In this document: piece by piece, positions 5,839-11,883 of the stretch
How the letters are laid out: each line of letters opens with the position of its first letter
Numbering within the stretch: position 1 is the first letter of the stretch
Assembly (NCBI GenBank): GCA_035998445.1
Contig: DASYHQ010000018.1
Span: forward strand, 186,001-250,000
DNA from: Tepidisphaeraceae bacterium
Lineage (GTDB): Bacteria; Planctomycetota; Phycisphaerae; Tepidisphaerales; Tepidisphaeraceae
DNA: 64,000 bases
Direction of reading: 5' to 3'
The notes under the pieces: model-generated
The model's database searches: none
The model's input: only the letters and a program-made list of their open reading frames with translations
Told to the model about the DNA's origin: nothing
Translations under genes and position numbers: made by a program

Positions 5839-6088
5839 GTGACTTCCCCACGCCGCATTGCGACAGATCGTCAGGTCACGCCGCATTGTCGCGTTAGGTG
5901 TGTGCTGCTTCAAAGGCAGATTTTGCCGTTCACTTCGCCTGGGGCGATGAGGGTGATTGGTTCAACCATTTTCAATTTTTCCGGCAAAAAGAGGGAAGTT
6001 GGCACCGCCGTTGCATTTCCAAAGACAAGCTTGCACATCACGTCGTGCACGGGCATTCGCAGGAACTACTTTCGCATTGGAGGCAATC

Positions 6089-6460
6089 ATGAATCTGTTT
6101 CAAACCACAACAGCCGGTCTCGTGTTGGGCGCCGCAGTACTAGTCGGCGGGTGCCAGTATGAACGCAGCACCGCGATTCCACAGACGGCGATCTTGGCAG
6201 TCGAAGGTGACGGTTTGCTGACCTATCGCGCGTCTGAGGACGGCACGGTCTACCTGTTCAACCGGAACAGCAATCAAGTTGTGTTCAGCGGCCAAATCAG
6301 CCGTGGCCAAGCGATCGTGGTCGACCCCGACAAGAACCACGTGATGCTCGATGACCGCATTGTCACTGAACGCACGCTCCGTCGGGGCGATCAGTATCGC
6401 GTCTTCTTCTCCCCGTCGACCACGGGTGACATGGGTACCGGCAACAACATGCGGTACTAG
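6089..6460 (+). CDS. Small lipoprotein of unknown function
   Basis: A 123-aa protein with a lipoprotein signal: MNLFQTTTAGLVLGAAVLVGGC, with lipobox LVGGC at residues 19-23. The mature part (TYRASEDGTVYLFNRNSNQ, then an arginine-rich RTLRRGDQYRVFF) looks like a small beta-rich domain. A GGAGG ribosome site sits at 6079-6083 before the ATG, which fixes this start rather than the upstream in-frame ATGs. A terminator follows. No family was recognised. It is probably anchored on the periplasmic side of a membrane. Confidence 0.75.
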   Translation: MNLFQTTTAGLVLGAAVLVGGCQYERSTAIPQTAILAVEGDGLLTYRASEDGTVYLFNRNSNQVVFSGQISRGQAIVVDPDKNHVMLDDRIVTERTLRRGDQYRVFFSPSTTGDMGTGNNMRY

Positions 6461-6538: not shown

Positions 6539-6566
6539 CCCTGCCACATTGTTGGCAGGGTCTTTT
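6539..6566 (+). terminator. Rho-independent terminator
   Basis: Stem CCCTGCCA/TGGCAGGG (6539-6546 with 6553-6560) followed by TCTTTT. It ends the lipoprotein transcript and separates it from the Snf7-like gene. Confidence 0.85.
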
Positions 6567-6628
6567 GCGTGCATTCGAACGCGATAGGCTTTGCGCGGCG
6601 GTCTGGGATCGGTTACGCTCACGTCGAT

Positions 6629-7237
6629 ATGGGCCTGTTCAAATCGAAAGACGAGCGTCGGATCGACCGCGAGATGAAGATCCGCTCTTCAATGCGTTCG
6701 ATCGAGCGGCTGATCCGCCAGCAGGAGAAGTTCGCCGACGACTTTATTGCGAACGCGCGCAAGGCCAAGCAGATCGGCGACCAGGGCCAGTACCAGTTCA
6801 TCCGCGGCGCGCTGAAGAAGACGGCCGCGGTGAAGAAGATGCTTGAGCGGCAGCTGCTGTCGATCAAGAGCGCGATGCTCATCCAGCAACAGGCCGCGGC
6901 CAGCCAGCAGTTCGCCGAGAGCATGAACCTGATGGCCCGCGAGATCGGCCGCACGTTCGGCGAGACGGACCTCACCAAGACCCAAACTCAGTGGGAACAC
7001 GCCGTCACCCAGGCCGGCAGCCTCGAGGAGCGCATGGACCTCTTCCTCGACAGCATGGAACAATCCGCCAACGCCGGTGCCCCCGCGAGTGCAAAGGATG
7101 ACCTCGTGACCGACGCCGAGATCGACCGTATGATTGCCGCCGACGTGCTGGCGAGCGAGAAGGCGGAGCTAAGCAAGTTGGACGAGCTGGAAAGCGAGAT
7201 CGCCAAGGAACTGGGCGCGACCAAACAACGCGACTAA
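6629..7237 (+). CDS. Snf7/ESCRT-III-like coiled-coil protein (candidate)
   Basis: A 202-aa all-helical protein with no signal peptide or membrane segment. It starts MGLFKSKDERR, like the short MGLF-type N-termini of several CHMP/Snf7 proteins. Two long basic helices follow (about residues 10-50 and 55-105; ARKAKQIGDQGQYQFIRGALKK recalls the AKxGQ region between ESCRT-III helices 1 and 2). Then comes a helix with paired acidic/Met residues (SLEERMDLFLDSMEQ, compare the EEMMD..D.M stretch of Snf7 proteins). The acidic C-terminus has VTDAEIDRMI and a leucine-spaced tail (ELSKLDELESEI), where ESCRT-III proteins carry Vps4-binding motifs. The charge switch from basic core to acidic tail also fits. 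PspA-type signature sequence is not seen. No AAA ATPase lies nearby. The ATG at 6629 is preferred over 6569 because the shorter form begins the helical core. This is pattern resemblance only, not a scored homology. Confidence 0.55.
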   Translation: MGLFKSKDERRIDREMKIRSSMRSIERLIRQQEKFADDFIANARKAKQIGDQGQYQFIRGALKKTAAVKKMLERQLLSIKSAMLIQQQAAASQQFAESMNLMAREIGRTFGETDLTKTQTQWEHAVTQAGSLEERMDLFLDSMEQSANAGAPASAKDDLVTDAEIDRMIAADVLASEKAELSKLDELESEIAKELGATKQRD

Positions 7238-7377: not shown

Positions 7378-10300
7378 CTACTTCTTTTTCTTCTTCCCTA
7401 ACTCCTTAAATAAGTCCCCCACCGCGTCCTCGATCGTCGCCGGTGGCTGATCCGCATCCCGAGGCGTCTCAGGTTCGCTTGGCGTCGCTTTTTCATTGCC
7501 AGCTTTATCCGATCGTCCGCCGCCCAGCAGCCGTTCCGTCAACTGCTTCTGAATCGCGCCTTCGATCAGCTTGCCGATCAACCGGTCGACCTGCACCTGC
7601 GGCGACAGCGTGGTGCCGGTGATCGGTAGCGTGACTTCTGCAGGCATGTACTTCGCCAGATCGCCGCCGCGACCTTGAAGAAACTCGGTGAGCAGGCTGA
7701 GGTTCATCGGCATCAGCTTCATGTCCGACAAAGAAACCGCCCCGTTCAAACGCAGCGGATACTGCCGCCCGCCCTGCTCGACGGCGATCGTGATGTCGCT
7801 CTTCGTCACGCCTCGCGCCAGTTGCACGCGGCTCTTGCGCACCGCGCCGTTGATTGTCGGGCTGTTGCCCGTGGCCTCGAGCACCTTCGAGATGGTCTCA
7901 TTTCCGAGGATTAACCCCGGCACCTCGAATTCAATCTCGGCCACGCCATCGTTCTCGGGCGCCTTCGACTTGATCAGTTCCGGATCGAGCGGCACGCGAT
8001 CCAATCGAATGATAATCGCGGTTAACTGTCCGCTGGCCTTTGACGGATTCGCGAATACTGGGTTCACGAACTTGCCGAGCACGTTGGTGGCCAGAAACGG
8101 ATTGAGCGTCGCCCCCTGAACGAGTTTCTTGTCAGCCGGCACGGAGAGCCGCGGCGCCAGCGGATCGGTGAAATCGATGACCGCCCCATCGAAGTCGAGC
8201 GTGCCGTCGTTAAACTCCGCCGGCTGCATTCCAATCGCCGCGAGCCCTTCGGCCAACCTGAACGACACGTCGAGGTTCGCCAGTCGCGAGCCTTCCAACT
8301 CGGCCACCGGCACGGCCAAACTGCCCGTCGCGACGACCTGCTTGATCGCTTCGTGGAACGGCAGGTTGGTCGGGTACTGCCCACTTACGGTGAACCGCCG
8401 CTCGACCTTTCCGCTGGGTTTTAGATTGGCAAGGGTGGGTTTGAGATCAACTGGCACTAGAGGCTTGGCCAGCAGCCAGAGCGGCTCAAGGTCGTACGCG
8501 ACGTCGGCAACGATGTTGTCGAACCGGCGGGCGTTCATGTAGTCGCGCACGGCCCCCTTAGCCGTCACGGCGAGTGCCCCGCTGCTGTCCATCTTCAGCG
8601 TGACGGCGTTCAGGACGGCGTCGCTCTTGGTCAGATCGATCAGAAGATCGTTGCCGATGTCGATCTGATCTTCGGAAAAGGCCGGTTGACCGGCCTCGGT
8701 GACCTTCAAACCCTTCAACGGCAAGTTGCCCTTCAGCGACAGTGCGTCGCCGATGGGTGTGATCGTCTGCGTCCCGTTGAACGATGCGAGTTCGAGAATG
8801 GAATCGCCCTTCTGCACTGCCAACTGCCCACCGCGCAGTTCGGAGACGTTCATCGTCGGCAGGCCGTTGACGGCGCGCGACACTTGGGCCTTCGTCGAGA
8901 ACGAGCCGCTGACGACCTTCAACGGTGCCACTGGCGTGCCATCCGTAGCTGGCTCGGCGGGTGGCAGGAACGCTGTGGCGATCGAATACAGCGGCGCCAG
9001 ATTGGGTATAGCCAGCGACACGTCGGCCGACTCGATTAGCTTCATCGGATCGAGTGGCGCATCGGGCTTGGCCGGGTCGCGAAGCGTCAACTTCGTATTG
9101 GCTGCGCGGGCGGACAGCAGTTCACCTTCGGCCGACGCGGTCTCGATCGTCGCGTTCGACAGATCGTCGGCCGCGGCGGCCTTCAGAGCGAGCTTGATGG
9201 GCTGGAAGTTCTGCACGCCGCTGGGCGTGCCAACTGCGAGGTTAGAAGCGACAAAGTCAGCCTGAACGCCCGTTCGGTTGTCATCCGGCCGCGACAGCAC
9301 CAGCGTGCCCTCAATCTGGCCGCTCTTCACGTCGCCCGAGGACGTCTCAATCGCCAACTGCTTCGCGAAAGCCCGGCGTGTAGCGGCGTTCAGTTGCGCG
9401 AGGTCTGCCGATATCGCAAGCGTTCCGGTCGCCTGCGGCAGTGCTGCGTCCTTCGGTAGCGCCGCCGTAAGTGGCCCGTTGGCCGACACGCGGAACATGC
9501 CCTGCGATTGCTGCGCCTGCAGCGACTGTAGCGTCACCGACGGCTCAGCTGTCAGGTTACTTGCGCTGCCAGCAAAGGTCGCACTGAAGTTGCCCTCGAG
9601 CGCCTTCGCCGCCTGGGCCTGTTCAGGCAATAGCGCTGCGATGGCCTGACCCGCTTTGGCCAAATCCAATTCGAACTGCTTCACTTCAAAGGCGGACACG
9701 TCGATGCGTTCACCCGTCTTCGTGACGACGACACTCGCATTCGTTGCGAACAGTCCACCCGAATGTCGCGCGACAAGATCGTTCACCGCCACCTTCGCGT
9801 CGCCCGTCACGCCCATCACTGATCCAGTCAGCGTGGCCGTCACGGTCCCACCGACGGCATCGCTCGCCTCCTTCAATTCCGGGAACAGGCTGCCAAGCTC
9901 GTTGGCAAGCCGTGGCAGGTCGAGCGAGAACTGTCGCACCGCGAACGCGGGCACGTCGATCATCTCTCCGTTGACCATAATCGACGCAGTCGCATCGGCC
10001 GCGATCGAGGCGGCGTGGGCGTCGCCCGTTTGAAGCGTGGCGGTGGTGATGTTCACCGCCTTTGGCAAGTTTGTTTCGGCATCAGTGGATACCTCGGCCA
10101 CCAGCTTGCCCACGATCTGCTTCTGCTCGATGGTGTCACGGTCGGCCAATCCTGCCACGCGCACATCGCTGATGGTTAATTCGCCGGTGAGCACGACGGG
10201 CGTCGTGCTGGCGGTCGTGAGGTCGCCTTGGCTGGCAATGGTGACGTTGAACGCGCCCGTCAGGCGCAACGTGCCGAAGTCGATCACCTGGCCAAGTTCG

Positions 10301-11883
10301 GCCTGCACGCGGTCGAGCGCGCCGGTCAGGGTGCCGTTGATGCCCGCGAGGCTAGGCCCGGTGAAGCTCCCGTTGGCAAACGCGCTGGTCAGTTCGAACT
10401 TCACGTCGCGCACCGACGCCAGCAGGTTGGCGCTTCCGCCGACGGTGGCGGCGAGGTCGATCTTGATCGACTGAAGCGCGATCGGCCTATTCTGATTCGT
10501 ATCGCGGCCCGCGATGCCGTCCAACGACGTCGTCGACGCCAGCGATATCGCCATCGGCGTGACATCGGCGACCGACCGGCTGGCGAGTTGCCCGCCGGTC
10601 AGTTCGATGCCCTCGACGAGTTTGAAGGTGTTTCGGAGATTGGCAGCGAGTTGACCGATATCGAAGTTGGCATCGATGATCGCCGTCCCAGGTTCGCCCG
10701 GCGCCTTTCCGTCGATCACGTTCAAGATCGCCGCCACCGGCGCGTCGGCGAATACGGTCGCCTTGCCTTGCTGGAGGAGGAGCGTCACGGGTTGCTCTGC
10801 CGATTCTCCGATTCGCACCCGCGAGGTTTGGTAATTCAAAAGCCCGTTCGGCATCGAGACCCGCACCGAGGGCACGAGGACTTCGGTCGACTCGGACGCG
10901 AACGTATCACCCTTCAGTATCGGTCCCGCCGCGGCCAGGCCGACGATGTTGGTCTTACCGTTAATCGCGATTTCCCTACCACCCGTGATGGTCGCCGTGA
11001 ACGTGCCGGCCGCCTTGCCGTTGATGGTGTCAATTGGCGCCTGCTCTCCCAACAGTGCGCGCAAGGCCGACAGGTCGACCCCGTCGTACGTCAGCACCTG
11101 CGTGCCCGCGACCGTCGACAGGTCAGGCTGGCCACTGGCATCAATCGTCAGCTTGCCGTTGTTGAATAGCTTCAGGTCCCCCGCAACCGACACCGTGCCG
11201 CCGGCGCCATCGTCGACGCTGGCGATCAGGTCGAGCTTGTTCTGGATCGGCGCATCTCCACCTGGCATCGTTATGTTGCCATTGATGCGGGCCAGCAGTA
11301 CCGCCGGTAGGCCGGGCGCGCCCGAGTGGGTTACGATGCCATCGACAATCTCGATCTGCCCGGCGATGCTCGGGATCTCAATCGGCGATCCGGCCGAGGC
11401 GCTATCACTCGCTTCTTCCATTTTCGGCTTTGTGACCCGCGCAACGTTCAGCGACCCATCCGGGTGATGGCGGACGTTCAGGTTTGGGCGTTCAATGCGA
11501 ATCGTGCCGAGGTTGAAGGGATCGGCGATAAGGCTCGCCAGCGACTTGTCGACCGTCACCTGCGCGACCTCGGCCACGAGCGATTGCTTGTCATCGTACA
11601 CCTTGATGCCGCTTAGCTTCTGCTTGCCAAGCCAGCCAAAGCTCCAGTCCGTCACTTGGATTTTGCCATCCAGCATGTGCTGGTTCGCCTGCGACAGGAC
11701 GAGGTTTCGCACTGGCGACATGCTGGCGAGGGTTGGACCGAGCGCGACCAAGGCCACCAGCCCGACAACGAGCAAAAGCACCAGCAGCACCAGCCGTCGT
11801 AGCCAACGACGCCGCTTGCGCGGTGGCACAGGTGTCGAGTTCGCGGGCTGGGGATCGGTGGGCCGCGAGATGGAATCGGTCAT
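7378..11883 (-). CDS. AsmA-like giant membrane-anchored protein
   Basis: A 1501-aa protein. The N-terminus is Pro/Arg-rich and cytoplasmic (PPRKRRRWLRR), then one membrane helix (about residues 28-50, LVLLVLLLVVGLVALVAL). A very long periplasmic region follows, built of repeating beta-strand patterns such as ANQHMLDGKIQVTDWSF and GTIRIERPNLNVRH, typical of AsmA N-terminal domains. The tail is charged and ends in a lysine run. AsmA-like proteins are thought to form grooved beta-structures that move phospholipid toward the outer membrane and are distantly related to VPS13-type bridges. A lipid-transport role is inferred from the family. It is divergent from gmd and convergent with the Snf7-like gene. 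Confidence 0.75.
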   Translation of the reverse strand: MTDSISRPTDPQPANSTPVPPRKRRRWLRRLVLLVLLLVVGLVALVALGPTLASMSPVRNLVLSQANQHMLDGKIQVTDWSFGWLGKQKLSGIKVYDDKQSLVAEVAQVTVDKSLASLIADPFNLGTIRIERPNLNVRHHPDGSLNVARVTKPKMEEASDSASAGSPIEIPSIAGQIEIVDGIVTHSGAPGLPAVLLARINGNITMPGGDAPIQNKLDLIASVDDGAGGTVSVAGDLKLFNNGKLTIDASGQPDLSTVAGTQVLTYDGVDLSALRALLGEQAPIDTINGKAAGTFTATITGGREIAINGKTNIVGLAAAGPILKGDTFASESTEVLVPSVRVSMPNGLLNYQTSRVRIGESAEQPVTLLLQQGKATVFADAPVAAILNVIDGKAPGEPGTAIIDANFDIGQLAANLRNTFKLVEGIELTGGQLASRSVADVTPMAISLASTTSLDGIAGRDTNQNRPIALQSIKIDLAATVGGSANLLASVRDVKFELTSAFANGSFTGPSLAGINGTLTGALDRVQAELGQVIDFGTLRLTGAFNVTIASQGDLTTASTTPVVLTGELTISDVRVAGLADRDTIEQKQIVGKLVAEVSTDAETNLPKAVNITTATLQTGDAHAASIAADATASIMVNGEMIDVPAFAVRQFSLDLPRLANELGSLFPELKEASDAVGGTVTATLTGSVMGVTGDAKVAVNDLVARHSGGLFATNASVVVTKTGERIDVSAFEVKQFELDLAKAGQAIAALLPEQAQAAKALEGNFSATFAGSASNLTAEPSVTLQSLQAQQSQGMFRVSANGPLTAALPKDAALPQATGTLAISADLAQLNAATRRAFAKQLAIETSSGDVKSGQIEGTLVLSRPDDNRTGVQADFVASNLAVGTPSGVQNFQPIKLALKAAAADDLSNATIETASAEGELLSARAANTKLTLRDPAKPDAPLDPMKLIESADVSLAIPNLAPLYSIATAFLPPAEPATDGTPVAPLKVVSGSFSTKAQVSRAVNGLPTMNVSELRGGQLAVQKGDSILELASFNGTQTITPIGDALSLKGNLPLKGLKVTEAGQPAFSEDQIDIGNDLLIDLTKSDAVLNAVTLKMDSSGALAVTAKGAVRDYMNARRFDNIVADVAYDLEPLWLLAKPLVPVDLKPTLANLKPSGKVERRFTVSGQYPTNLPFHEAIKQVVATGSLAVPVAELEGSRLANLDVSFRLAEGLAAIGMQPAEFNDGTLDFDGAVIDFTDPLAPRLSVPADKKLVQGATLNPFLATNVLGKFVNPVFANPSKASGQLTAIIIRLDRVPLDPELIKSKAPENDGVAEIEFEVPGLILGNETISKVLEATGNSPTINGAVRKSRVQLARGVTKSDITIAVEQGGRQYPLRLNGAVSLSDMKLMPMNLSLLTEFLQGRGGDLAKYMPAEVTLPITGTTLSPQVQVDRLIGKLIEGAIQKQLTERLLGGGRSDKAGNEKATPSEPETPRDADQPPATIEDAVGDLFKELGKKKKK

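Follow-up and report, generated by a model that had tools for sequence, protein, structure and literature searches.

Introduction

Systems that combine vps4 with ESCRT-III have been placed in archaea and eukaryotes only (PMC10936438), as CHMP/CdvB-type ESCRT-III has been placed in eukaryotes and archaea (PMC8281802). In bacteria the known branch is PspA/Vipp1 (PF04012), which belongs to the same superfamily and has the same fold (PMC8281802). Bacterial Vps4-like ATPases associate with a TPR protein, which is encoded by a separate gene, and in these systems an unrelated gene has taken the place of snf7 (PMC11237479). Sporadic bacterial loci of a 'Snf7 clade' have also been reported (AKJ06548.1, CBH24266.1 and OGG56892.1), some of them near AAA+ ATPases, in a paper whose main text does not name Planctomycetes (PMC11237479). 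Planctomycetota are known for budding without FtsZ (PMC6952346).

Here we analyse a gene of a Tepidisphaeraceae bacterium, located in a stretch of 64,000 nucleotides that is referred to below as the window. A preliminary description had likened the gene product to the Snf7 plan of ESCRT-III, and profile comparisons, structure prediction and a search for a partner ATPase all support this. We consider it very probable, from sequence comparison, that the protein is a bacterial member of the ESCRT-III superfamily, of the CHMP/Snf7 type, and that it serves as filament subunit in an ESCRT-III/Vps4 system that has been passed down within the Planctomycetota. This reading is based on the core plan, on CHMP3, Snf7 and CHMP2A being nearest, and on an ATPase with an MIT-like domain and two further families, called c2 and c5, which co-occur with the gene almost perfectly and usually lie nearby.

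The planctomycete protein shares with eukaryotic CHMP/Snf7 proteins (PF03357) the helical plan, a basic N-terminal hairpin and an acidic tail after a flexible linker. An MGLF-type start is common to it and CHMP3, and the nearest proteins in sequence are CHMP3, SNF7 and CHMP2A. It differs in that the family is about 15% identical to them, lacks a strict MIM1 motif and occurs in a bacterial host without endosomes. As in the archaeal Cdv system (CdvB with CdvC), an ESCRT-III-like gene is accompanied by an ATPase that has one AAA domain and an MIT-like domain at its N-terminus. The best NCBIfam model for the planctomycete ATPase is CdvC, but it falls far under the CdvC equivalog cut-off, and the kinase and SPFH-propeller fusion found in planctomycetes are additions for which no description was found. 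An SPFH gene is linked in archaeal Meth_adaptin systems too (PMC10936438).

Among bacterial systems, those of the ACB74714.1 type (Vps4-like AAA with TPR; PMC11237479) also have a Vps4-like ATPase, and the genome of the window itself encodes another AAA ATPase of Vps4-like type, this one with TPR repeats at the N-terminus, at 207 kb on contig C17 (G000, about 207,000-208,500, L220). The planctomycete system analysed here, in contrast to these, has the ESCRT-III gene, which co-occurs with an MIT-type ATPase. The 'Snf7 clade' loci resemble the planctomycete ones in having Snf7-like proteins in bacteria, but they differ, as described, in lying beside PspA or in having a TM-bearing Snf7 with AAA+ ATPase and transporter genes (PMC11237479). 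Single elements (Snf7-like, Vps4-like) are therefore already known in bacteria, while the conserved pairing in Planctomycetota is undescribed as far as checked: no report of a conserved pairing of ESCRT-III with an MIT-type ATPase in this phylum was found in the searchable literature, which covered the main text of open-access journal papers.

The gene and its product

The coding sequence runs on the + strand from an ATG at 6629 to a stop codon ending at 7237 and encodes 202 amino acids (P0001), which confirms the reading frame given in the preliminary description. A longer reading from a GTG at 6569 exists, but it is the ATG that relatives conserve as their start; proteins with this start are found throughout the planctomycetes of the surrounding lineage, at identities of 51-82%.

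The elements picked out by eye in the preliminary description are all present, namely an MGLF-type start (MGLFKSK), a turn (AKQIGDQGQ) that separates two long basic helices, a Met/acid-rich amphipathic helix, an acidic VTDAEIDRMI patch and a leucine-spaced tail. The charge layout it described is also found (+11 for residues 1-85, -6 for 86-145 and -7 for 146-202) and is kept across the family, whose mean charges for the same three segments are +10.7, -4.9 and -9.8.

Two AlphaFold predictions were made, and helix boundaries and Foldseek ranks are taken from the second. In both runs a hairpin is followed by two shorter helices, then by a disordered linker and a helix at the C-terminus. Confidence in the model is moderate (pLDDT 75, pTM 0.51): the hairpin is confident (pLDDT about 90), while the helices past residue 112 are weak, with the later core helices at 46-58. 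The predicted parts are as follows.

6629..6646, + strand: N-terminal MGLFKS stretch, alpha0-like, hydrophobic/basic; M1, F4 and K5 are invariant in 48 members; coil in the model
6647..6775, + strand: predicted helix alpha1, residues 7-49, basic (AlphaFold, pLDDT about 88-93)
6776..6781, + strand: hairpin turn, residues 50-51, inside AKQIGDQGQ (sequence and AlphaFold)
6782..6961, + strand: predicted helix alpha2 running into alpha3, residues 52-111, with an invariant ERQ motif at 73-75 (A2 alignment and AlphaFold)
6971..7012, + strand: probable alpha4, residues 115-128 (AlphaFold, low confidence, pLDDT about 57)
7022..7069, + strand: probable alpha5, residues 132-147, the amphipathic helix EERMDLFLDSMEQ (AlphaFold, low confidence, pLDDT about 50)
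7070..7111, + strand: flexible linker, residues 148-161 (segment 147-158 of the model has pLDDT <50)
7112..7231, + strand: C-terminal acidic helix, residues 162-201, candidate MIT-binding tail (AlphaFold)

The model has the long alpha1-alpha2 hairpin (7-49 and 52-111) followed by alpha3 to alpha5, with alpha4 and alpha5 predicted at low confidence only. In Foldseek searches with this model, ranks 1-10 are all CHMP or Asgard ESCRT-III structures, including CHMP2A-CHMP3, CHMP1B and other ESCRT-III filaments. PspA, Shrub, Snf7, CdvB and Vipp1 follow from rank 11, all ahead of any unrelated protein, so that CHMP/Snf7 and Asgard ESCRT-III stand above PspA/Vipp1. The scores are modest (best E 0.0028, TM at most 0.54 to the query).

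The strict MIM1 motif, (D/E)xxLxxRLxxL(R/K), is found in none of the 48 aligned family members, and a relaxed MIM1-like leucine spacing in 11 of them. There are CHMP members with other types of MIM, and so strict MIM1 does not define the whole CHMP branch.

Profile comparisons

In single-sequence searches of Pfam, NCBIfam and the PDB, the window protein gave nothing significant (Pfam Snf7: E 7.9, 6.6 bits, insignificant), and the Pfam Snf7 model had no match when run over the window's own genome. The significance for ESCRT-III comes from the family profile, because the window sequence alone is too divergent. The profile used (A2) was made from 48 diverse members with identities down to 37% and 16 invariant columns. 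Against all PDB sequences it gave eight matches, all of them CHMP3, SNF7 or CHMP2A, with a best E of 0.002. An earlier profile of 33 close members (A1) found no significant match in the PDB; the more diverse A2 succeeded.

The Pfam Snf7 model (gathering cut-off 27.3 bits) was also scanned over all six frames of 118 planctomycete genomes. The family loci rank first, with two of them above the cut-off (28.9 and 28.4 bits) and the better matches extending over most of its length, up to positions 5-169 of 171. As full proteins, the same two members score 27.2 and 22.3 against the cut-off of 27.3, and most family members are below it.

HHalign comparison of the family with CHMP/Snf7 gave 94.7% (local) and 96.1% (global), with E from 6e-8 to 2e-9, and the local alignment covers residues 1-170. 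The reference consisted of three sequences entered by hand and two based on PDB matches, and the set matches named CHMP1B/2A/3/4B/SNF7 chains. Reversed-profile controls against CHMP reached at most 0.3%. By sequence profile, the family is significantly similar to the ESCRT-III superfamily.

The family scores 21-39% against planctomycete PspA, which in turn scores 49-81% against CHMP. At 95-96% as against 49-81%, the family is nearer by profile to CHMP/Snf7 than PspA is. The earlier proposal of a protein closer to CHMP than to PspA is supported by these scores, as a ranking by profile similarity. In the genomes where PF04012 (PspA_IM30) was run, it matched no family locus and found true PspA genes elsewhere in some of them; the genome of the window gave no PspA match. 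The family differs from PspA/Vipp1 also in its linkage to an ATPase of the MIT-Vps4-like kind.

Distribution of the family

By profile search, 56 of 198 Phycisphaerae genomes carry the family, as do 45 of 392 genomes drawn across the Planctomycetota, with a single copy per carrier genome. Conservation down to 37% over 48 sequences, together with this single-copy occurrence, argues that the protein is not a chance resemblance. A tree of the 48 members tracks lineages, with high support at deep splits, and is consistent with vertical inheritance within the phylum. Eukaryotic contamination and recent transfer were considered and rejected on the same grounds, and because the gene lies among bacterial genes. 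One member, 76% identical, comes from a Gemmatimonadota MAG (L013, JADZCT010000058.1, Gemmatimonadaceae), where it lies on a contig of 3.2 kb that is probably mis-binned planctomycete DNA.

The probable partner ATPase

A search for a Vps4-like AAA ATPase with an MIT domain, which the preliminary description had suggested, found one with an MIT-like domain in the window genome (C41:234122-235249) and one near the gene in most related loci. The ATPase consists of an N-terminal helical region, a single AAA domain, whose pore loop reads KWVG, and a C-terminal end like Vps4_C. For type a, a PDB search with the profile of the N-terminal region puts MIT domains, those of VPS4B, SKD1 and VPS4A, in the first seven places (E 5e-4). 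For type b, which includes the protein of the window genome, the first match is 2mpk (chitin synthase 1; E 0.001), which we take to be an MIT domain. TPR proteins come next after the MIT-type matches. On these PDB profile matches, the ATPase has a predicted N-terminal MIT-like domain. The Pfam MIT model, searched over the Phycisphaerae, gave no clear match and mostly short, partial ones, and for this reason is not used as evidence.

Pfam Vps4_C is above its cut-off in members from L210, L020 and L182 and below it in others; for the ATPase of the window genome it is not listed at E 0.01. The best NCBIfam model for the latter is CdvC (233.4 bits), with Cdc48 nearly equal (232.3), and as a single sequence against the PDB it scores highest with Cdc48/p97. 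Type-b ATPases score 233-240 bits against the CdvC equivalog NF041006, which is their best model, yet they are far under its cut-off of 650. Judged by sequence, the ATPase is Vps4-like in architecture, and its AAA lineage is as near to Cdc48 as to CdvC by score. In seven loci from outside the Phycisphaerae (L178, L188, L196, L197, L214, L215 and L217), two Vps4-like ATPases with differing N-terminal domains flank the ESCRT-III gene.

Gene neighbourhood and co-occurrence

In the window the ESCRT-III-like gene stands alone, with a short ORF (5957-6460), lipoprotein-like by eye, on one side and a convergent 1501-aa ORF (7378-11883, - strand) on the other. The product of the latter has a weak DUF748 match (31 bits, below the cut-off), and a similar ORF of 1548 aa follows the ESCRT-III-like gene in L205. 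Just upstream of the gene, at 6539-6566, CCCTGCCA-CATTGT-TGGCAGGG followed by TCTTTT resembles an intrinsic terminator that would serve the preceding gene; it is absent from the output of the terminator scan.

Neighbourhoods were counted in 45 related loci (overlapping sources included), with codon-scored gene calling. The conserved cluster consists of a membrane protein, a Ser/Thr kinase with zinc ribbons, c5, c2, the ESCRT-III-like gene, the AAA ATPase and an SPFH protein, the last of these an SPFH domain with a beta-propeller-like part (Band_7 is above cut-off in one member). The ATPase gene is on the same strand and at most five genes away in 36 of the 45 loci, often at a spacing of a few to tens of bases. 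In other lineages c5 and c2 are replaced by c8 (which combines a MerR domain with a further region), c9 and c7, and two ATPases are often present.

The c5 protein is in two parts, a c8-like region joined to a c9-like region (HHalign of c9 with the C-terminal part of c5, 99%). Pfam matches nothing in its N-terminal part, which is winged-helix-like by eye only, and its C-terminal half looks ESCRT-III-like in sequence. Direct comparison with CHMP does not support c2 and c7 as ESCRT-III (HHalign 0.5-3.3%). They are graded only as probably ESCRT-III-like because they are joined solely through c9 and the C-terminal part of c5.

The ATPase was found in 56 of the 198 Phycisphaerae genomes (E <= 1e-95), and 54 of these are among the 56 with the ESCRT-III gene (hypergeometric P <1e-42, a value inflated by shared ancestry). 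The genomes with c2, a second filament-like family, number 56 as well and coincide one for one with those that have the ESCRT-III gene. The genome of the window has all three, dispersed over three contigs, with c2 at C33:195775-196374 and c5, the kinase and the membrane protein just upstream of it. Relatives such as G007, G011, G013 and G017 likewise retain the three genes, and in these the ATPase gene is found on a different contig or at a distance of megabases.

No FtsZ-family match was found in the window genome, nor in 188 of the 198 Phycisphaerae genomes as a whole. Divergent FtsZ/tubulin-family matches of 35-50 bits occur in the other ten (G056, G062, G068, G098, G117, G122, G172, G181, G193 and G199), none of which carries the ESCRT-III gene. 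Division is a candidate role, since FtsZ-family matches are absent from most of the class; many of the genomes without them also lack the ESCRT-III system. Replacement of FtsZ was rejected as the sole explanation: 188 genomes have no match, yet the ESCRT-III gene is in 56.

Alternative explanations

The protein could be a divergent PspA/Vipp1, from the branch of the superfamily that is ordinary in bacteria, with a role in envelope stress that needs no Vps4. This branch is the one reported from bacteria, and PspA structures do appear in the Foldseek list, but we regard this reading as very unlikely, given that PF04012 misses the family loci yet detects genuine PspA genes in some of these genomes, that HHalign strongly favours CHMP over planctomycete PspA, that the PDB matches are all CHMP/Snf7, and that the gene is linked to an ATPase of the MIT-Vps4 type. 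Nor do we give much credit to an unrelated long coiled coil that mimics CHMP in its charge and in the periodicity of its helices. Spurious matches are a general problem with long basic helices, and Pfam does list many weak unrelated families for single family members. However, reversed profiles of the same composition, and the helical families c2 and c7 from the same loci, score next to nothing against CHMP, the PDB matches are to ESCRT-III proteins only, and co-occurrence with such an ATPase is unexpected for a random coiled coil; this makes the coiled coil barely credible.

A different possibility is that the protein is a true ESCRT-III, but one that works independently of the ATPase in the lineage of the window, perhaps as a PspA-like membrane stabiliser. 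The separation of the three gene sets on three contigs and the lack of a PspA match in this genome would fit such a role. Against it, co-occurrence outlasts the loss of linkage, both here and in the relatives with a distant ATPase, and we therefore consider it highly improbable. The filament subunit of an ESCRT-III/Vps4 system is the reading that we adopt below.

Proposed mechanism and implications

In the proposed ESCRT-III/Vps4 system, the basic hairpin and the N-terminal MGLF stretch would bind the cytoplasmic face of the membrane, and the subunits would polymerise, probably together with c2 and the C-terminal part of c5. The acidic tail beyond the flexible linker may then be engaged by the MIT-like domain of the ATPase, in a manner that does not use a canonical MIM1. 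The ATPase would thread subunits through its KWVG pore and so remodel or strip the polymer, upon which the membrane would constrict or reseal. The kinase, the SPFH/beta-propeller protein and the membrane protein encoded alongside may recruit or regulate the system. Possible cellular roles are cell division, budding and membrane repair.

A wider and more tentative suggestion, which we think rather doubtful as a whole, is that an old ESCRT machine of several subunits has been passed down vertically in the Planctomycetota, made up of a CHMP-type filament, further ESCRT-III-like subunits (including one within a two-part protein), MIT-Vps4 and SPFH. ESCRT-III with Vps4 would then not be exclusive to archaea and eukaryotes; the bacterial branch would either predate the archaeal one or stem from a very early transfer, and the machine would serve division or the scission of internal membranes in cells without detectable FtsZ.

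If true, a bacterial ESCRT-III/MIT-Vps4 system would alter the picture of a machinery limited to archaea and eukaryotes, and would do so in a phylum known for its unusual membranes. It would bear on the origin of ESCRT, and would open ESCRT-based membrane cutting to testing in bacteria.
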